This document shows positions 5,457-29,243 of a stretch of 64,000 nt of DNA, piece after piece. The notes below the pieces were generated by a model, which saw only the letters and a list, made by a program, of their open reading frames with translations, was not told where the DNA came from and searched no databases. Made by a program: the position numbers and the translations under genes. The stretch comes from Treponema sp. GTDB taxonomy: Bacteria; Spirochaetota; Spirochaetia; Treponematales; Treponemataceae. Numbering within the stretch: the first letter of the stretch is position 1; every line of letters begins with the position of its first letter. The stretch covers positions 1 through 64,000 of the forward strand of contig JAEEWW010000007.1 in NCBI GenBank assembly GCA_016287815.1, read 5' to 3'.

Positions 5457-8400
5457 ATGGATTTTAATGCAAAAGAAAGGGAAAACGAAACCCCTGTTTT
5501 TTCTAAATTAGTTCAGCCTTTAAGACTTGGAATTGACGTAGGTTCAACTACTGTAAAGGTTGTAATTTTAGCTGATGATGACAAAATTCTATATAGCGCA
5601 TATGAAAGGCATCGTGCAGATATAAGAAATACGATTATTTCTGTAGTAACTGAAGCTTTAAACACTGTTTCTCCTATGGTAGAAGCAGGAGAAAATCAGA
5701 CAATAAGCGCAAAAGTTACCGGTTCCGGCGGACTTTCTGTTTCTCAGTGGCTTAATATTCCGTTTATTCAGGAAGTTATTGCTGCTACAACTGCGGTTAA
5801 AAAACTTATTCCGCAGACTGATGTTGTAATAGAATTAGGCGGAGAAGACGCCAAAATTACTTATTTTGATAACGGCGTTGAGCAGCGTATGAACGGTACC
5901 TGTGCCGGCGGAACCGGTGCATTTATTGACCAGATGGCTGCTTTGCTTGAAACCGATGCCGCAGGACTTAATGAACTTGCTGCAGGGGCTTCCACGATTT
6001 ATCCGATCGCGGCGCGCTGTGGTGTTTTTGCCAAAACTGACGTTCAGCCTCTTATCAATGAAGGCGCGCGCCGCGAGGATATTGCGGCTTCAATATATCA
6101 GGCTGTTGTAAACCAGACAATTTCTGGGCTTGCATGTGGTAAACCAATCCGTGGAAACGTAGCATTCCTTGGCGGTCCGCTGCATTTTATGGATCAGCTG
6201 CGTGAGCGTTTTATCGTTACACTAAAACTTACAGGCGATGCAATTATTGTTCCTGATAATTCCCAGCTTTTTGTTGCCGCCGGTTCTGCATATGCTGCTG
6301 AGCGTCTGCCAAATGCGTTGTCTGGTGAAAAACCGAAGGATTTTCCAACAATTAAGGAATTCCGCGATAATCTGAAAAATCTTGTAGGGGCTGAACTTAG
6401 CGAAGTTCAGAGGCTTGAACCTCTTTTTACAAGTCAGGAAGAACTTGATAAATTCAGCGAACGGCATTCGCAGGAAAAAGCCGCCCGTGCTGATCTTAGT
6501 ACGGCAAAAGGTCCTGTTTTTCTTGGACTTGATGCGGGCTCTACAACTACAAAAGCAACCCTTATAAATCAAAAAGGCGAAATCCTTTGGGATTTTTATG
6601 ATGTAAATGCAGGAAATCCTGTTGACCTTGCAGTCCGCATCTTAAAGGATTTATATAGAAGACTTCCTAAAGATGTTTATATAGCACGGGCGGTTTCTAC
6701 CGGTTATGGCGAAGCCCTTTTTCAGGCAGCTCTTAATGTAGATGCCGGTGAAGTAGAAACGATTACACATTACAGGGCTGCTGATTTCTTTGTTCCTGGC
6801 GTTGAATTCCTTTTGGATATCGGCGGACAGGATATGAAATGTCTTCGCATGAAAGACGGAGCAATCGTTTCAATTCAGCTGAACGAAGCATGCTCTGCCG
6901 GCTGCGGAAGCTTCCTGGATAATTTTGCCCACACAATGGGCATGAATATTGAACAGTTCAGTAAACTTGCACTCCTTGCAGAGCATCCTGTTGATTTGGG
7001 CAGCCGCTGTACTGTATTTATGAACAGCCGCGTAAAGCAGGCTCAGAAAGAAGGTGCTTCTGTTGCAGATATTTCTGCAGGTCTTTCTTATTCAGTAATT
7101 AAAAATGCCTTGTTTAAGGTTATAAAATTACGCAAGGCAAGTGATATCGGTACAAAAGTTGTTGTTCAGGGCGGAACATTTAAGAATATGGCTGTTCTGC
7201 GCGCTTTTGAAAAAATTGCAAAGGTTGAAGTTTTCCGTCCTGATGTTGCAGGACTTATGGGAGCTTACGGTTCTGCATTGATTGCGCTTGATCAGTGGCG
7301 TGACTTAACGGCACCAAAACCAGGCGAACCGGCCGGAACTGTACACGAAGTCCGTTCCGGACTTGCAACACTTGAGCAGCTTGATTCGTTCCGTGTAGAT
7401 TTGGAACTTCGCCGCTGCGGTAAATGCCAGAATAACTGTCTTCTTACTATAAACACGTTCTCTACAGATTCTGCTGCAGGTGATAATTCTACCGGCGGCG
7501 AAGCCAGCGGAAGGGCGGTTCGCCGTTTTGTTACAGGTAACCGCTGTGAGCGTGGTGCGGAAATCGGCGGTTCGGTAGTTGATGCTACAAATCATAAGAA
7601 TAAGGCCGAAGCATACCGCGATGATATTCATGAACTTCCAAATCTGTTTGACTGGAAATATAAGCGGCTTTTCAATACCTATGTTCCGCTTTCTCCGGAT
7701 AAGGCACCTTTGGGGGATGTTGGAATTCCGCGTGTACTTAATATGTATGAAAACTATCCTTTGTGGTTTACTTTCTTTACAGAATTAGGTTTCCGCGTAA
7801 GGCTTTCTCCTCGTTCTACAAGAGCAGTTTACGAAAAAGGTCTTGAATCAATTCCTTCGGAATCAGTATGTTACCCTGGAAAAATTTCTCACGGCCATGT
7901 TGAATCGCTTTTAAAGCAGGGAATAAAGTTCATTTTCTATCCTTGTGCACCTTATGAAAAGCAGGAAGATTCCGGGGCAGGAAATCACTATAACTGTCCG
8001 ATTGTTACAAGTTATCCAGAAGTTCTGCGCAATAATATAGATGCTTTGCGTCAGGATTCTAATATTCTTTATATGAATCCGTTCCTGCCGATCTACGACA
8101 AGGAACGTCTTGCAGAACGTCTTTATGAAGAAATGCATCCGCATTTTCCTTCATTAACGCGTTCGCAAATTGATAACGCCGTTGAAAAAGCATGGAAAGA
8201 ACAGGAAAAATTCAGGCTTGATACACAGCTTCAGGGTGAAGCAGCTATTGAACAGCTGATTCGTACCGGGGCATCGGGTATTGTTTTGTCTGGTCGTCCG
8301 TATCATCTTGATCCTGAAATTAACCATGGAATTCCTGAAATGATACACAGTCTTGGTCTTGCAGTCTTTACAGAAGACAGTGTTGCTCATTTAGGTTCCA

Positions 8401-19509: not shown

Positions 19510-22500
19510 GTGATTATTTTTACAATTTTGCTGTCGGCAGCAATTTCTGCCGGTATAGTTTTAGTATTCAGGAATATTGATAAAGAAAACAATTCTATGG
19601 CAAGTGTTCGCCGCTATGCGGACAAACGCCTTGCTGATTTTGAAAATTATTTCAAAGAGAAGACCCACGAACTAAGTGCAACAGGTGCAGAACTTGATTC
19701 TAAACAGACTATGTCTGCGGCAGCCGTAAATCGCTTTGAAAAACAGCTTGCTGAATTTAAGCAGATGCTCGGCGCATTGAGCAAAGAAACGGCAACCATA
19801 GATAACCTTAAACAGAAGTCTGACGATTACGAAGATTCCCTAAAAAAATTGATTCAGATGTCTGCAGCTGTAGAAGAAAATTTGCAGAGAATTCAGAATG
19901 CTTCCGGTGTTATAGAAAAAGTAAATGCACGTTTTGATGCTCAGAATAAAATTGCAGATTCTATCGAACGCAAGGTTAATTCTACTGTAAATGAATTTAC
20001 CCGCAAAAATGAAGAACGTTTAAAGGCAATTGGAACAGAGCTTTTAAATCAGTACGAAAAAAGAGCGCAGAGCATTGATGAAGCAACGGTTTCTGCACAG
20101 GCGCGTGCAAATGAACTTCTTGAAAAAATCAATTCTGATATAAACATGGCTTATGAAGATGCTTCTCAAAAAGCCATGCAGCTGGAAGATGCTGCATTTA
20201 AAAATTTGAGCCAGAAAGCAAATGAACGATGCGATTCGTATAAAAAGGCTATAGAAGACAAAACCGATGAAATTAAACAGAATATCATTGAACGTGAAAA
20301 TGAATTAAAAAAGCAGATGCAGGACAGTTCTGCTTCAATAAAACTTTTATCCGAAAATCTTGCAAAAGAAAATATTTCTAACGGTAAATCTATAGAGTCG
20401 ATAAAACAGGAATTTGCTTCAAAAGTTGCAGAACTGCAAAAACGCTATGATTCTCTGTTTGCTTCTTCTGTTTCTGAAGCAGATAAGCGGGAAAAAGCCG
20501 CATATGCAAAATACCTGGAACTTGCACGCCAGAATCTTGAAAACTTCAAAAAAACTGCAGAACAGGAACTTGAAATATTTAAAAGCACAACTGGACAGAA
20601 TCTTGAAGCGCTTAAAAAATCAGCTGAACAGGATTTTACTAATACAAAAACAGCGGCTTCAGAAAAGCTTACGGCCATTAATACTGCAATCGAACAGAGA
20701 TTTTCTTCGCTCAATTCGGTAATTGATGAAAAAGTTAAGCTTGCAGAAGCTAATGCACAGCAGCAGATTGGTTCAGTAACAGGAAAAATTGCACAGACAA
20801 ATCAGGCTGCAATTGAAAAACTTCAGGCTGTAAATTCTGAAATTGATAATAAACTTAACGAAGTTACCGCGCGTTTTGCCCAGATTGGTCAGGCTGCGGA
20901 TGAAAAAGCTGAAGAATTTAATGCCCAGCTTGAAGATAAACTTAGAAGCTGTGACGAACGTATTTCAGAAGCTCAGCAGGAAGCTTATGAAAAAGCAGAG
21001 CAGATTAATTCTCAGATGGATTCCAGAATTGATCTGGTAAATGAAAAAATCGAACAGGCAATTCAGACTTCTCAGGAAAATGTTGACAAAATAAATGACA
21101 CGATAGAAGAAAAATTAAGCTATGTTCGTGAAAAGCTTGAAATTGCTGATAAAGCCTGTACCGATAAGGTAGAACAGGCACAGTCTTTAATTGAACAGAA
21201 GTTTGAAGGAATTAATTCAACATTGGAAGCTGCAACTCAGGATGTGGCTCAAAAGATTGCACAGACACAGCAGGACGTTGCAGAAAAAATTACACAGACA
21301 GAGCAGTCCGTTAATCAGCGTATAGAAAACATCCAGCAGAATTCATCTGAAAAGATTGAACAGACACAGCAGGATGTTGCAGAAAAGATTACGCAGACAC
21401 GGCAGTCTGTAAATGGTCAGATAGAAGAAATTCAACAGGATTCAGCACAGAGGATTGCACAAACCCGCCAGGAAATGGCTCAGAAAATTGCAGAAATCCA
21501 GCAGTCCGCAGAAGACAAAATTACCAATATACAGCAGTCTGCAGAAGACAGGATAAGTAATATACAGCAGTCTACTGAAGAAAAAATCAATAATATCCAG
21601 TATTCCACAGAAGAAAAGATTAATAATATTCAGCATTCTGCAGAAGAAAAAATCAGCAATATCCAGCAGGCCACTGAAATAAAAATTAATGATATACAGC
21701 AGGCTTCGGAAGCAAAACTTTCCGAAGCAGAGACTATGGTCGAAAGGCACTTTGCAGAGCTGGACGGTAAGTGTGCTCAGATTCAGCAGAATGCCGCAGA
21801 AAAAATTGATAATGTTACGAATATGATTTCAAGTACACAGCATACGGTAGCTGAAAAACTTGAAGATGTCAGCAGCTTTGTTGAACAGAAAGCACAGGAA
21901 ATAAATGTTCGTGCTGATTCTAAAATAGAAGCTGTAAACGAAAAACTTTTGTCAGTTGAAAAAGAATTTGATGATAAGGTTAATAAGGCAAATTCTGTAA
22001 TTGATGAAAAAATTGTTTTTGTAAATGAAAAAATGTCAGGCATTGAAAAAGCCGCCGCAGAAAAAGTAAGTCAGGTAACGGCGGCAATTACCGGCGGTTT
22101 CAATTCCGTAGATGAAAAAATCCTTTCGGCTAAAAATGATGCAGAAAGCAAAATAGAAAAGATTTCCATGGGAATCGATGAAAAGTTGAATGCCGTTACT
22201 TCTGATGCAGAGCAGGCACAAAGACTTTCTGCCGAAAAACTTGCCGAAGTTTCTAAAAAGATTGCCGGCATGGATACAATGTTAAACGACTATCAGAAAG
22301 ATTTACAGTACAGACTTTCTGCAATTGAAATGTCCGGCAAAGATGTAGAAGCCGTGCAGGATGCAATGCATGCGGCTATGGATAAAGTTCAGTCCCGTAT
22401 ACTTTCAGAATTTACTGATTTTACAAATAAACAGAAACAGAATCAGGATTTATTTGCACAGTCTTTAAATCAGAATCAGGCAAAACTTTCTTCCGAACTT

Positions 22501-24435
22501 GAAGCGCTGGAAATAGCCCTTGATGAATTAAAAACTTCCGCTATATCAAGTGTAAGTGAAAAACTTAAAGGAATAGAAGATAACTTTGATGCTGACCTTC
22601 AGGTAAGAAGTTCTAAACTTGCAAATGACCTTAATGCATGGAAAACTGATTTTGACGGACGCCTTACAACGCTTGCAAATCAGTATGAAGACCAGCGCCG
22701 CGATCTGGAAAATGCTTATTCTGAAGATTTTAAGAATAAACTTATTTCTATGCAGGAGCGCAACAAAGAACTTTTTGCAAAGAATACACAGGCTATTAGT
22801 GAAACAGAAAATTCAATACAGGTTCAGCTTGAACAGGTTCGCTCTGATTTGAACAGTTTCATGGATCAGTACCGTGATAATTTGCAGAAAGCTTCTTCAG
22901 ATTCTGAACGTGCATTAAGGGAAGCTTCCGCTTCTTATAATGCGCAGATTTCTGAACAGCTTGAAAAGAAAGAAAAAGAAATCCTTGAAGACCTTAAAAC
23001 ATTTGAAGACGGCGTAATTTCAAGGCAGCAGACAAGCACCTCTTCAATTGATTCAGCCCTTTCTGAATTTAATTCATGGAAGGAACAGCTTCGTCAGCAG
23101 ATGGAAGAATCCCGTACAATGTTCTTTGAACAGTTACAGGGAATGAGCAGTACAGCTGCTAAAAAACTTTCTGAAGCACAGGAAGAACTTGACCGCAACA
23201 TTTCTGATTATTCTACAGAAAATCAGGCAAGACTTTCAGAACTTGCTTCGCAGATTGATTCTCTTAAAAACCGTACAGATGTATCTATTGAAGAATTTGA
23301 TGCACATTCTAAACAGATTGTTGCAGAAATGCAAAAATTGTATGAAGAAATGCTTTCTTCTACGGAAGAAAAGGTTCATCAGCAAAATGCAGAAGCTGAA
23401 GAAAAACTTCGTTCGCTTAGAAATGAAATTCAGTCTGCAAGTGAAGAAAGTCAGATGCGTCAGTCAAAACTTGTACTTAAGATTCAATCTGATGAGAATG
23501 ACTTCCAGACACGCATGAGTGAAATCGATAAAGAATTAAAGAATGTAGAAACTCAGATGCAGGTTTACGAAAAAGCTGATCAGATGAAAAAACAGTTGGA
23601 TGAAAAAATCGCTGATCTGACAAACAGTTTTAACAGGCTTGAACTTTATCATTCCGATGCAAAAAAACTTTCAGAAGAATATGCAGCAATCATCAGTCTT
23701 GATAATGAGATGAATGAAAAGGTTAACCGTTTTAATGCCGGTAAAGCTCAGATAGAAAGCATTGAAACTAAGTTTGAGCGTCTGCTTAATCTTTCAGACA
23801 CAATGGACGAAAAAATTCGTGATTTACAGTCAACCAGTGATGATTTACAGCAGCTGCAGCTTTCTGTAAGAAATTTCCAGAATACTCTGGCAGGAATTTC
23901 TGAACGATATGATCGTCTTGAAAAGAAAAATGAAGTTATCGATCAGGTTACTGAAAACGTAGATAAAACATTTGAAACCCTTAAAGATTTGGAAATCAGA
24001 CTTTCAAATTGTGTTCGTCAGGCAACGGCTCTTCCTGGCGAAATTTCGGAAGTTCAAAATAATGTAGATTCAATCCTGGCTAATGACGGAAGAATTTCTG
24101 ATGCAGTGGCTAAATTGCAGTCTTTGGAAAGTATTCTTGAAGAAGCAGAAACCAAAGTGGATTCAATAAAGAATGAACGTCAGGGAATAGCTAATAGCGA
24201 AGCAAGGCTTCAGGCTCTTTCCAGAGAGATTGATTCTAAGTTCAAATTGCTTGAAAGGCTTACAAAAGCGGATCTTGATAAAAATCCGGCTAAAAATACA
24301 GGCGGCATAAGCCCGCAGGACAGGGAATCTGTAAAATCTTTGAAGCGGCAGGGATGGACAGTTTCTGAAATTGCAAGAAGATTGAATTTCCCGGAAAGTG
24401 CGGTAGAACTTATTCTGGAAATGCCTGATGATTGA
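19510..24435 (+). CDS. Giant coiled-coil protein, SpiroCoCo-like, with N-terminal TM and C-terminal HTH-like motif
   Basis: 1641 aa, almost entirely heptad/hendecad coiled coil; N-terminal hydrophobic helix MIIFTILLSAAISAGIVLVF; C-terminal SVKSLKRQGWTVSEIARRLNFPESAVELIL. Confidence 0.85.
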   Translation: MIIFTILLSAAISAGIVLVFRNIDKENNSMASVRRYADKRLADFENYFKEKTHELSATGAELDSKQTMSAAAVNRFEKQLAEFKQMLGALSKETATIDNLKQKSDDYEDSLKKLIQMSAAVEENLQRIQNASGVIEKVNARFDAQNKIADSIERKVNSTVNEFTRKNEERLKAIGTELLNQYEKRAQSIDEATVSAQARANELLEKINSDINMAYEDASQKAMQLEDAAFKNLSQKANERCDSYKKAIEDKTDEIKQNIIERENELKKQMQDSSASIKLLSENLAKENISNGKSIESIKQEFASKVAELQKRYDSLFASSVSEADKREKAAYAKYLELARQNLENFKKTAEQELEIFKSTTGQNLEALKKSAEQDFTNTKTAASEKLTAINTAIEQRFSSLNSVIDEKVKLAEANAQQQIGSVTGKIAQTNQAAIEKLQAVNSEIDNKLNEVTARFAQIGQAADEKAEEFNAQLEDKLRSCDERISEAQQEAYEKAEQINSQMDSRIDLVNEKIEQAIQTSQENVDKINDTIEEKLSYVREKLEIADKACTDKVEQAQSLIEQKFEGINSTLEAATQDVAQKIAQTQQDVAEKITQTEQSVNQRIENIQQNSSEKIEQTQQDVAEKITQTRQSVNGQIEEIQQDSAQRIAQTRQEMAQKIAEIQQSAEDKITNIQQSAEDRISNIQQSTEEKINNIQYSTEEKINNIQHSAEEKISNIQQATEIKINDIQQASEAKLSEAETMVERHFAELDGKCAQIQQNAAEKIDNVTNMISSTQHTVAEKLEDVSSFVEQKAQEINVRADSKIEAVNEKLLSVEKEFDDKVNKANSVIDEKIVFVNEKMSGIEKAAAEKVSQVTAAITGGFNSVDEKILSAKNDAESKIEKISMGIDEKLNAVTSDAEQAQRLSAEKLAEVSKKIAGMDTMLNDYQKDLQYRLSAIEMSGKDVEAVQDAMHAAMDKVQSRILSEFTDFTNKQKQNQDLFAQSLNQNQAKLSSELEALEIALDELKTSAISSVSEKLKGIEDNFDADLQVRSSKLANDLNAWKTDFDGRLTTLANQYEDQRRDLENAYSEDFKNKLISMQERNKELFAKNTQAISETENSIQVQLEQVRSDLNSFMDQYRDNLQKASSDSERALREASASYNAQISEQLEKKEKEILEDLKTFEDGVISRQQTSTSSIDSALSEFNSWKEQLRQQMEESRTMFFEQLQGMSSTAAKKLSEAQEELDRNISDYSTENQARLSELASQIDSLKNRTDVSIEEFDAHSKQIVAEMQKLYEEMLSSTEEKVHQQNAEAEEKLRSLRNEIQSASEESQMRQSKLVLKIQSDENDFQTRMSEIDKELKNVETQMQVYEKADQMKKQLDEKIADLTNSFNRLELYHSDAKKLSEEYAAIISLDNEMNEKVNRFNAGKAQIESIETKFERLLNLSDTMDEKIRDLQSTSDDLQQLQLSVRNFQNTLAGISERYDRLEKKNEVIDQVTENVDKTFETLKDLEIRLSNCVRQATALPGEISEVQNNVDSILANDGRISDAVAKLQSLESILEEAETKVDSIKNERQGIANSEARLQALSREIDSKFKLLERLTKADLDKNPAKNTGGISPQDRESVKSLKRQGWTVSEIARRLNFPESAVELILEMPDD
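21250..21711 (+). repeat. Tandem 33-nt coding repeats encoding about 14 hendecads
   Basis: Consecutive 11-residue units such as EKITQTEQSVN, DKITNIQQSAE, DRISNIQQSTE, EKINNIQYSTE, EKINNIQHSAE, all in exact 11-aa register. Confidence 0.9.
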
Positions 24436-24484: not shown

Positions 24485-25714
24485 TTAATTTTTAGAAAGC
24501 AGACAGGTGGCAAAAGCTTCTATTGCTTCGCCTCTGCCGATTTTTCCAATTTTTTCTCCGGTTTTTGCCTTTACAAAAATCTGGTCTGAATTAACTTCAA
24601 GAACGCCGGCGATTGACTGAATTACTTTTTCTCTATACGGAATGAACTTTGGTTTTTCAAGAGCAATTACACAGTCAAGGTTTTCAAGTTTCCAGCCTTT
24701 TTGTGTAATTTCCTGCCACACAGTTTTTAAAAGCATTTTTGAATCTGCGTCTTTCCATTTAGCTTCTTCCGGTGGGAAGAAACTTCCTATATCTCCCATT
24801 GCAGAAGCTCCAAGTAAAGCATCTGTTATTGCATGCAAAAGAACATCGCCGTCTGAATGTCCGTCTTCTCCTTTTTCAAAAGGAATTTCAATTCCGCCCA
24901 GCATCAATTTTCTGCCTTCAACAAGTTTATGAAGATCATAGCCAAGACCTGTTCTTATCATTTTATTGTCCTTTTTCGGGTGTTCTTCGCTATTCAGCAT
25001 CTGTAAGTCAGATTTATAGGTAATTTTTTTATTTATAGAATCACCTTCTACGATTTTTACTTTTCCGCAGTATTTTCCCCAGATTTCTGTATCATCTGTA
25101 TATGAACAGCCGTCAAGTGCTGCTTTTTTATGTGCTTCAAATAATTCTTTAAATTTGAAAGCCTGCGGAGTTTGTACGGCTGCAAGATTTTTTCGCTCCA
25201 AATGGCGTTTAATAAAGCCGTCACTTGAAATTTCTTTCTGTGTATCTACTGGTTGTAGTGCCGGAACAGAAGCTCCGAATTTTGCAGCTGCTTCTATAGT
25301 ATCTGTTATTATTTTTTTTGTTACAAAAGGGCGCGCCCCATCGTGTATCAGAACTAAATCATTATTGACTGGTGTTTCTGTTTTGTCTGCAATTGCGGAA
25401 AGTGCATTTAATACGGATTCCTGTCTTGTTTTTCCGCCTTCTGCAAGGATAAGCGGAATATTTGCTGAAAGCTGCTTTAATTTTGAATCTGTAAAAAGCG
25501 CTTCTTCTGCCTGTCTTTGTCCGCCTTTTGGAATAGCGATTGCAATTTTTGTTATGGGATATGCTTCAAGAAAAGAGCGGACAGCTCTTGAAAGAACTGT
25601 CCCTTCTTCTAACGGTAAGTATTCTTTTTTTAAGCCGCCCATCCTTGTGGAAGAGCCTGCTGCAACAACAACAAGATAAACTCTATTCGTCAAAGTCGTC
25701 ATCGTCATCATCAT
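24485..25714 (-). CDS. ispDF: Bifunctional 2-C-methyl-D-erythritol 4-phosphate cytidylyltransferase / MECDP synthase
   Basis: IspD part VVVAAGSSTRMGG...LVLIHDGARPFV; IspF part GLGYDLHKL...GHSDGDVLLHAITDALLGA. Exact start among several ATGs unclear. Confidence 0.94.
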   Translation of the reverse strand: MMMTMTTLTNRVYLVVVAAGSSTRMGGLKKEYLPLEEGTVLSRAVRSFLEAYPITKIAIAIPKGGQRQAEEALFTDSKLKQLSANIPLILAEGGKTRQESVLNALSAIADKTETPVNNDLVLIHDGARPFVTKKIITDTIEAAAKFGASVPALQPVDTQKEISSDGFIKRHLERKNLAAVQTPQAFKFKELFEAHKKAALDGCSYTDDTEIWGKYCGKVKIVEGDSINKKITYKSDLQMLNSEEHPKKDNKMIRTGLGYDLHKLVEGRKLMLGGIEIPFEKGEDGHSDGDVLLHAITDALLGASAMGDIGSFFPPEEAKWKDADSKMLLKTVWQEITQKGWKLENLDCVIALEKPKFIPYREKVIQSIAGVLEVNSDQIFVKAKTGEKIGKIGRGEAIEAFATCLLSKN

Positions 25715-26546: not shown

Positions 26547-27152
26547 TTAGAGCTTAATCTGATAGCCTACGCCCAATGTAAGAGAGCGGAGTGTTGCAAT
26601 TTTATCACCGTCTTCATTCTTGAGAGGTGTTACACCAAAGTTGTAGCGGAGGTCTCCAACAAGAGCGCCGTTACCCATTTTGTATGCAACTTCTGTACCA
26701 AGTACGATGTCGAAAATAAATGGTTTTACTTTTGTGTCACCACTGAAATCACCAGAAAGTTTAGCTTTTCCAATAACATAGCCGAACTGTGGACCTGCAA
26801 ATGGGGATACTGTAAGAGCGTCGCTTACTTCGATGTCATAAGTAATAAGAGCTGCAAGATCAAGAACATTTACAGTTGATGTGTATTTTGCATCAAAATT
26901 ATCAACTTTCATTGCGCTTTTTACAACGTTGAATCCGAGTTCCGGCTGTACAGAAATGTTTTCTGCAACCGGGATTTTTGTAAAACCAGTAATGCCATAA
27001 TTCAGTGATTTAGCAAGTTCAAGTTTTTCATCACCGTAGAGTTTTGTTCCGATTCCAAAACCAAAGTTACCACGACCACCAACTGTAATTTCAGCTGTTG
27101 CCAAAGATACTGCTGCAATTGCTGTTACAACCAAAGTAATAATTTTTTTCAT
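26547..27152 (-). CDS. Outer-membrane beta-barrel protein (201 aa)
   Basis: Signal peptide MKKIITLVVTAIAAVSLATA, repeated beta-strand pattern, C-terminal LTLGVGYQIKL. Confidence 0.75.
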   Translation of the reverse strand: MKKIITLVVTAIAAVSLATAEITVGGRGNFGFGIGTKLYGDEKLELAKSLNYGITGFTKIPVAENISVQPELGFNVVKSAMKVDNFDAKYTSTVNVLDLAALITYDIEVSDALTVSPFAGPQFGYVIGKAKLSGDFSGDTKVKPFIFDIVLGTEVAYKMGNGALVGDLRYNFGVTPLKNEDGDKIATLRSLTLGVGYQIKL

Positions 27153-27242
27153 TGTTTTTCTCCTTTAACATTTTCATGTAGTTGATATGTGACCAAAATA
27201 TACGGCTAGTTTTTAGTAAGCACAATTCATAAAAAGGCAAGA

Positions 27243-27267
27243 TGCATTTTCGGCATGGTAAAATGCA
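27243..27267. promoter_or_regulatory. Candidate operator: inverted repeat TGCATTTT-N9-AAAATGCA in a divergent intergenic region
   Basis: Perfect 8-bp inverted repeat about 40 bp upstream of a TATAAT at 27307 that precedes the LytTR gene. Confidence 0.4.
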
Positions 27268-27322
27268 CAAAAATAGATAAAATCTGCAAAAAAACTCTGT
27301 ATAGTGTATAATTAAACGGATA

Positions 27323-27760
27323 ATGAAAATTACGATTTTAGATGCAGAACCTGATGAAGAAGATGAAATTATCGTCAAGTGTCATTATATTGACGAAAAT
27401 CTTTCTCATATAATTCATCAATTGAAAAATGGAAGCTCCAAAATGAATTTTACAAAGGACGGAAAAATCGTTCTTGTAGAAAAGTCAGAGATTCTATACT
27501 TTGAGTCAGTTGATGACCGGTGCTTTGCTTATACGGCACAGGAAGTTTACGAAACAAAATTAAAGCTTTATATGATCGAAGAAGAAGTTCCTGCTGCCAG
27601 GTTTTTCAGGGCTAATAAGGCGATGATTGTAAATATAAGCAAAATTGAAAGTCTTTCTCCGGCTTTTGGAGGAAGATTTGAAGCTGTCTTAAAAAACGGA
27701 TATAAGGTTATAGTTTCCAGAGCGTATGTACCAAAATTAAAAGAAATTCTTGGGTTGTAG
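27323..27760 (+). CDS. LytTR-domain DNA-binding protein without receiver domain
   Basis: KIVLVEKSEILYFESVDDRCFAYTAQEVYETKLKLYMIEEEVPAARFFRANKAMIVNISKIESLSP...VSRAYVPKLKEILG is a typical LytTR domain. Confidence 0.9.
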   Translation: MKITILDAEPDEEDEIIVKCHYIDENLSHIIHQLKNGSSKMNFTKDGKIVLVEKSEILYFESVDDRCFAYTAQEVYETKLKLYMIEEEVPAARFFRANKAMIVNISKIESLSPAFGGRFEAVLKNGYKVIVSRAYVPKLKEILGL

Positions 27761-27811
27761 GACGACAGAAGGGTTTTCAGAACCTATATAAAGAAATTTT
27801 TAGAGGATTTT

Positions 27812-28243
27812 ATGAGAGAGAAGTTTAATACAATGATTGTAATGTTTACAAGATTTTCTACAGCCATATTTCTGATTGATTCGCTTGTTCTTCTGGCTTT
27901 TAAAGGAAAAGAAGCAAAACTTTTTGCAACAGACATACTTGCTATTCTTGCATTGGCTCTTGCGTGTGCTGTTATATATACACTGCTTTTAACTGACAAA
28001 GATTTTTCTAAAAAGAAAATGTTTTTAATGCAGTTTTTATGTTTTGTAATTATAGATGTTCTGGTTCTTACAACAGGATTCTTTTTAAACTGGTATTCAT
28101 TCTGTTATATAGGTTCATTCTTTGCCTTTGAAAGCGTTATAATCGTTGTGTGCTTTGTAACTATAGCTTATTCATATAAAATCGATTCGTCTACTGCAAA
28201 AAAAATGAACGAAAAGCTTAAATCACTGGAAAAAGTAGTGTAG
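27812..28243 (+). CDS. Four-TM membrane protein, DUF3021-like
   Basis: 143 aa with about four hydrophobic helices and a basic C-terminus; directly downstream of the LytTR gene. Confidence 0.7.
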   Translation: MREKFNTMIVMFTRFSTAIFLIDSLVLLAFKGKEAKLFATDILAILALALACAVIYTLLLTDKDFSKKKMFLMQFLCFVIIDVLVLTTGFFLNWYSFCYIGSFFAFESVIIVVCFVTIAYSYKIDSSTAKKMNEKLKSLEKVV

Positions 28244-28265: not shown

Positions 28266-29243
28266 ATGGTTTTATTTTTAAATTTTCTTATTCTTGCCAT
28301 AGGTTTTTTCGCACTTGTAAAAGGTGCAGACTGGTTTGTAGACAGTGCCGCAGGAATTGCCGGTAAACTTGGTGTTCCACAGCTTATAATCGGTTTAACT
28401 ATTGTTGCCATGGGCACAAGTGCTCCGGAAACTGCTGTCAGTTTAACGGCTTCATTAAAAAACAGTGCTGATCTTGCAGTGGGTAATGTACTTGGAAGCA
28501 ATATAATTAATATTTTACTTTTACTTGGAATCACTTCTATAATCTGTCCTCTTCTGGTAAGAAAAAGTACGCTGAAATTTGAAATGCCGTTTGTAATCTT
28601 AATTTCTGTTATTCTTATGGCGATTGGAATTGAGTTCAGTTTTTCAAATGGACTTGCGATTTCAGACGGAGCTTTAACCCGGATTGACGGTGTTATTTTA
28701 ATTGCATTGTTTTTAATGTATCTGGCATATCTTTTTTACATGGCAAAGCATGGTCTTGCAGATGATGAAGAAATTTCAATCGATAAATCTAAGTCGTATT
28801 TACATCTTGTTATTGTTTTACTTTACGGACTTGGAATGGTTATCGGCGGAAGTAATTTAACAATCCGCGGTGCTTCAAAAATTGCAGAATTCTGGGGAGT
28901 TCCAGAGCGGATAATAGGTTTAACGGTTGTTGCCTTTGGAACTTCGCTTCCGGAACTTGTAACATGTATTGTTGCAGCATTAAAGAAAAATGCTGACATA
29001 GCAATCGGAAACATTGTTGGAAGCAACATTTTTAATATTCTGTTTGTACTGGGAATTTCGTCTCTTGTTACAAAAATACCTTATCAGGCATCGTTTATGA
29101 TGGACAGTATAATTGCCATTTTATCTGCCGCAGTACTGTTAGCGTGTGTTGCCTTTAACAAAAAGCACGTTCTGGCACGTTTTTCAGGCATTCTGATGCT
29201 TGTTCTATATGCGGTGTATTTTGTACATCTGGTTCGTTCGTAA
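28266..29243 (+). CDS. Calcium/sodium antiporter (CaCA family)
   Basis: Duplicated alpha repeats: GLTIVAMGTSAPETAVSLTASLKNSADLAVGNVLGSNIINILL and GLTVVAFGTSLPELVTCIVAALKKNADIAIGNIVGSNIFNILF. Confidence 0.95.
   Translation: MVLFLNFLILAIGFFALVKGADWFVDSAAGIAGKLGVPQLIIGLTIVAMGTSAPETAVSLTASLKNSADLAVGNVLGSNIINILLLLGITSIICPLLVRKSTLKFEMPFVILISVILMAIGIEFSFSNGLAISDGALTRIDGVILIALFLMYLAYLFYMAKHGLADDEEISIDKSKSYLHLVIVLLYGLGMVIGGSNLTIRGASKIAEFWGVPERIIGLTVVAFGTSLPELVTCIVAALKKNADIAIGNIVGSNIFNILFVLGISSLVTKIPYQASFMMDSIIAILSAAVLLACVAFNKKHVLARFSGILMLVLYAVYFVHLVRS

Follow-up and report, generated by a model that had tools for sequence, protein, structure and literature searches.

The locus examined here lies in a window of 64,000 nucleotides, the whole stretch of Treponema sp. 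DNA that was analysed, and raises the question of which gene a LytTR regulator encoded beside a membrane protein controls in a double-membrane bacterium, and through which site. LytTR Regulatory Systems (LRSs) are widespread, and their characterised examples are streptococcal. To our knowledge, the signals and targets of LRSs outside the streptococci remain largely unknown. The analyses described below lead us to consider it probable that the window encodes an LRS whose regulator activates the divergent gene for an outer-membrane β-barrel protein (OMP). The features of the locus are collected in Table 1.

Table 1. Positions of genes, promoter elements and repeats at the lytTR locus of the window.
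Feature	Position	Strand	Remarks
OMP gene, predicted target	26547-27152	-	201 aa; OMP_b-brl_2, E = 7.1e-13
OMP promoter, -10 box TATATT	27197-27202	-	17-bp spacer; position of the conserved TATAxT of relatives
OMP promoter, -35 box TTGTGC	27220-27225	-	Begins 10 nt 3' of the direct repeat
Proximal half-site TGCATCTTGCC of LytTR-type direct repeat	27236-27246	-	21 bp from the distal half-site
Perfect inverted repeat TGCATTTT-N9-AAAATGCA	27243-27267	.	Judged to arise from the direct repeat
Distal half-site TGCATTTTACC of LytTR-type direct repeat	27257-27267	-	Zero mismatches to the pattern of relatives
lytTR promoter, candidate -35 box CTGCAA, weak	27284-27289	+	Sequence inspection; 17-bp spacer to the -10 box
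lytTR promoter, -10 box TATAAT	27307-27312	+	10 nt before the ATG
lytTR, receiver-less LytTR transcription regulator	27323-27760	+	145 aa; PF04397, E = 4.3e-27, the only domain matched
DUF3021 four-helix membrane protein, presumed LytTR inhibitor	27812-28243	+	143 aa; PF11457
Na+/Ca2+ exchanger family gene	28266-29243	+	PF01699, E = 1.9e-69; 22 nt 3' of the DUF3021 gene

The lytTR-DUF3021 gene pair

The earlier note had described a receiver-less 145-aa LytTR protein, followed after about 50 nt by a 143-aa protein with four transmembrane segments, and both genes were confirmed where it had placed them. A domain search of the regulator returned PF04397 alone and no receiver domain, and the gap between the two genes was 51 nt. 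The membrane protein, which had been proposed as a DUF3021 candidate, matched PF11457 above the cut-off (26.9 vs. 24.7 bits) over profile positions 9-130 of 130. Its AlphaFold model (mean pLDDT 86.7) contained four confident helices (residues 2-34, 39-60, 67-91 and 100-142), and no PDB structure matched the fold below E = 1.

The pair was also conserved, as the earlier note had proposed to check. Among the 145 genomes surveyed in the family Treponemataceae, 30, that of the window included, had a full-length LytTR orthologue with at least 55% identity; the 29 orthologues were 55-73% identical, and a DUF3021 gene adjoined lytTR on its 3' side in all 30 loci. A second set of 80 loci, which overlaps with the first, came from named genomes that take in Treponema bryantii strains and Lachnospiraceae; these loci were found by an alignment-based scan of contigs, the scan with a single sequence having given no match. 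DUF3021 was found at the expected place in 77 of the 80, and two of the other three were gene-calling misses, which left one locus without a confirmed DUF3021. All of the aligned partner proteins (48/48) matched DUF3021. A phage or mobile origin of the pair was rejected, as no relatives were found among viral contigs. The exchanger gene that follows is possibly co-transcribed with lytTR and the DUF3021 gene; it was absent from the lytTR-DUF3021 loci of relatives and is thus not a conserved neighbour. Elsewhere in the window, an ORF at 24485-25714 reads by eye as an IspD-IspF bifunctional fusion, and a 1641-aa ORF at 19510-24435 is rich in coiled coil and ends in an HTH-like C-terminus, also by eye.

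A second LytTR protein of the same genome, 263 aa in length and encoded on contig C113 (locus L070), consists of a four-helix, DUF3021-like membrane part fused to LytTR. The membrane part aligned with the DUF3021 profile with an hhalign probability of 92.7%, at a score below the Pfam cut-off. This natural fusion supports the view that DUF3021 and LytTR are directly linked in function. HigX of Caulobacter (PMC13384398) is likewise built of four helices followed by LytTR; it differs from the two-gene system of the window in being fused and in having an inverted-repeat motif. These fused proteins bear on the role of the partner, which by analogy with HdrM and BrsM would be to keep LytTR inactive. 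Given that HigX needs its fused membrane part for activity (PMC13384398) and that the C113 fusion shows that LytTR tolerates a membrane part joined to it covalently, DUF3021 might instead act positively, as a partner or anchor that LytTR requires for its activity; in the characterised two-gene LRSs of S. mutans, however, the membrane protein inhibits (PMC6193735), and we regard the positive role as unlikely.

The direct repeat and the divergent OMP promoter

The operon promoters of relatives have a common pattern, a direct repeat of 21-bp period with the sequence TGCATCTTACC-N10-TGCATCTTRCC, which was taken from operons that contain lytTR orthologues. The intergenic region of the window contains such a repeat on the minus strand, TGCATTTTACC-N10-TGCATCTTGCC (27267-27236; 32 bp, 21-bp period). 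When scored with a weight matrix built from 17 such sites, with the window left out, it reached 37.5 of 39.9 bits, compared with 7.2 bits for the runner-up in the 64 kb and at most 17.7 bits in simulation (80 strands of 64 kb); the direct repeat is far beyond chance. The draft genome (159 contigs) was searched by mismatch pattern only, and three matches with at most three mismatches were found, of which the window site alone was exact; the reversed pattern, used as a control, gave none. A candidate site on contig C29 (three mismatches) lay ahead of a GNAT acetyltransferase-like gene. Across the family genomes, that of the window excluded, a site with no more than two mismatches occurred in 18 of the 29 that have a lytTR orthologue and in 5 of the 115 that do not (Fisher p = 2e-11, relatedness not corrected), although the repeat was undetectable near lytTR in some orthologous loci.

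The repeat is tied to a regular promoter geometry. In 32 of the 46 distinct sites, which take in that of the window, TTG begins 10 nt 3' of the repeat, with a TATAxT box at 33-38. The set of 46 is likely to include matches that arose by chance or lie outside promoters, such as that of L091 in a repetitive coding region, so the regularity among true sites is probably higher. The OMP promoter of the window, TTGTGC-17-TATATT, fits the site-to-box spacing of relatives exactly and is followed, 3' of the -10 box, by a Shine-Dalgarno-like AAGGAG ahead of the OMP ATG at 27152. It also resembles, beyond the boxes, the promoter of a lipoprotein gene in a near relative (L119). The divergent OMP gene was found as the earlier note had placed it, and the proposal that LytTR could control it gains support from the conserved site and promoter geometry. 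The encoded protein is only a distant, weak relative of the TDE1717 outer-membrane family (NF049866), with 55.7 bits against a cut-off of 135 bits.

In relatives the repeat mostly precedes the operon that holds the lytTR-DUF3021 pair, and genes of other exported proteins lie under the site, whereas in the window it points at the OMP gene and away from lytTR. It should be noted that the repeats of two related loci (L027 and L032) point away from the adjacent gene, and orientation is therefore no absolute guide to the target. A conserved linkage of OMP and lytTR was rejected: among the orthologous pairs examined, only that of the window has an OMP homologue beside it, and OMP relatives are also present in genomes without a lytTR orthologue (e.g., G120). 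As no relative examined has kept the OMP gene as a neighbour, its assignment as the target rests on the promoter of one genome together with the motif. An OMP paralogue of 73% identity is encoded in the same genome on contig C73 (23165-23740; locus L116); control of this paralogue by LytTR was rejected, as no direct-repeat site was found upstream of it.

The second LytTR protein could also act at this site. On contig C113 (5440-7245), the fusion gene is followed by a direct repeat (6239-6270) with two mismatches to the pattern of relatives and then by a β-barrel gene (6559-7245). There may thus be cross-regulation between the two LytTR proteins, and that of C113 may bind the window site. Common targets of HdrR and BrsR, a co-regulation by two LRSs described in S. 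mutans (PMC6193735), would be a precedent for shared use. The motif, however, came from the promoters of operons with orthologues of the window LytTR and co-occurs with these orthologues, and we therefore doubt that the window site is used mainly by the membrane-fused LytTR, or by both proteins.

On the other side of the intergenic region, a TANAAT hexamer was found 4-16 nt 5' of the ATG in 16 of 30 lytTR loci, compared with none of 83 starts of other genes in these loci, which suggests that the lytTR transcript is conserved as leaderless or near-leaderless and supplies basal regulator. A weight-matrix scan of 27153-27322 found no plus-strand direct repeat of good quality facing lytTR, and direct lytTR autoregulation is therefore without sequence support in the window. 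Of the two targets that had been proposed, the OMP gene and the regulator itself, the former stands, and self-control is less clear than the earlier note assumed. That LytTR represses from the site instead of activating, or mainly controls its own operon, would accord with a site between two promoters and 16 bp 5' of the candidate lytTR -35 box; a repeat just 5' of a -35 box is, however, the activating arrangement of LRSs (PMC6193735), no good repeat faces lytTR, and this reading appears improbable.

The intergenic region had drawn attention earlier for its perfect inverted repeat, which is indeed present. It exists because TGCA is self-complementary and because the spacer between the direct half-sites has AAAA at its end, so that the half-site sequence TGCATTTT meets its complement AAAATGCA at the second half-site. 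The 64 kb contain 121 perfect 8-bp inverted repeats whose spacers measure 3-20, and one as good was present in 182 of 2000 shuffled versions of the intergenic region (~9%). In relatives the arms pair at 2 to 8 of 8 positions, and both direct half-sites stay conserved; the palindrome thus did not hold up as an operator, its arms being unconserved and common by chance. Although it is perfect and central in the divergent region, and although an imperfect inverted repeat is the ChIP motif of HigX, a membrane LytTR protein (PMC13384398), the variable arms of the palindrome, the chance frequency of such palindromes and the self-complementarity of its two outer TGCA tetramers make it very unlikely that a LytTR dimer or another regulator binds it to control both divergent genes.

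We therefore return to an LRS that probably activates the OMP gene, for which we infer the following course of events. The lytTR and DUF3021 genes would be expressed at a low level from the near-leaderless promoter, and DUF3021, as a four-helix inner-membrane protein, would keep LytTR inactive in the manner of HdrM and BrsM. A membrane or envelope signal would free LytTR from DUF3021, and the freed regulator would bind in tandem to the direct repeat of 21-bp period at 27236-27267 and activate the OMP promoter, which lies immediately 3' of the repeat on the minus strand.

Comparison with described LytTR Regulatory Systems

The described LRSs, among them HdrRM, BrsRM and SMU_433/434, are likewise composed of a receiver-less LytTR followed by a small membrane protein, which is a DUF3021 protein in some (PMC6193735). 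The window pair is an LRS, with all tested features of this described class except a repeat facing its own operon. Its LytTR is receiver-less, the adjacent protein is a small multi-pass membrane protein without an enzymatic domain, and the pair is conserved. The LRS rule in PMC6193735 is given as 9-bp direct repeats 12 bp apart and ~10 bp before a -35 box. The window has GCATTTTAC-12 bp-GCATCTTGC (minus strand, 27237-27266), within the range of 11-13 bp used in our comparison, and at the OMP promoter the repeats lie ~10 bp 5' of the -35 box, the TTG beginning 10 nt after the 11-bp half-site. The repeats of described LRSs mostly face the lytTR operon, as is expected of autoregulation, whereas that of the window faces the OMP gene. 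A repeat facing a divergent outer-membrane protein gene is not among the LRS examples in the consulted passages of PMC6193735.

Among the closest described systems is that of T. bryantii (SAMN04487977_102124/102123; Zou et al., 2018), which also combines a spirochaete LytTR, a membrane protein and direct repeats. Its repeat, ACCACTTAT-N11-GCCACTTAT, belongs to another locus (G100:C7), with a different, 157-aa LytTR and a different membrane protein. T. bryantii also has orthologues of the window pair (L151-L153), and members of this family may be in the supplementary list of Zou et al. A nearly identical half-site is listed for lmo0984/lmo0985 of Listeria monocytogenes (PMC6193735, Table 3), where the repeat reads GCATCTTAG-12 bp-GCATGTTAC and the -35 box, TTGTAG, lies 10 bp away. 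The Listeria repeat differs in lying upstream of the LRS operon itself, and Listeria, being Gram-positive, has no outer membrane.

Variable neighbours of the pair and their meaning

The gene upstream of lytTR varies among Treponema loci. About half of the family loci (L042-L060) have a cassette for a DsbD_2-like protein, a 4Fe-4S membrane protein and a Glucodextran_C-like protein, which looks like membrane redox chemistry; nine Treponema loci have a gene for an exported AAT/CBAH-type (Ntn-type) hydrolase, and others have small lipoprotein genes. In Lachnospiraceae, genes that read as an ABC-2-type ATPase and permease precede lytTR, which agrees with the occurrence of ABC transporters next to some LRSs (PMC6193735).

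Sites were also seen at other places. In six genomes (L078, L079, L087, L088, L095 and L099) the repeat precedes the gene of an HEYGH-motif protein of ~140 aa, which is a possible conserved distant regulon member; the one member scanned had no Pfam match. In two genomes (L094 and L097) it lies ahead of genes that by eye resemble flavodoxin-like proteins or FMN reductases. At L148, a fused membrane-LytTR gene and a LytTR-DUF3021 pair are arranged divergently on either side of a direct repeat.

These loci may be read as a single LytTR-DUF3021 switch, its site nearly unchanged, that has been coupled repeatedly to different exported effectors, a reading to which we give about an even chance. For Lachnospiraceae the effectors would be ABC-2 transporters, and for Treponema the DsbD-like/4Fe-4S membrane redox cassette, the secreted Ntn-type hydrolase, lipoproteins and the OMP of the window, whose gene faces the opposite way; the site would be the portable unit, and in this lineage it would have captured a duplicated OMP gene. 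The window gives an exact predicted site, promoter and target gene in a double-membrane bacterium, and the conserved motif makes the regulon readable in dozens of Treponema genomes. Comparison of the targets, among them an exported hydrolase, lipoproteins, an OMP barrel and membrane redox proteins, could offer a clue to what DUF3021 senses.
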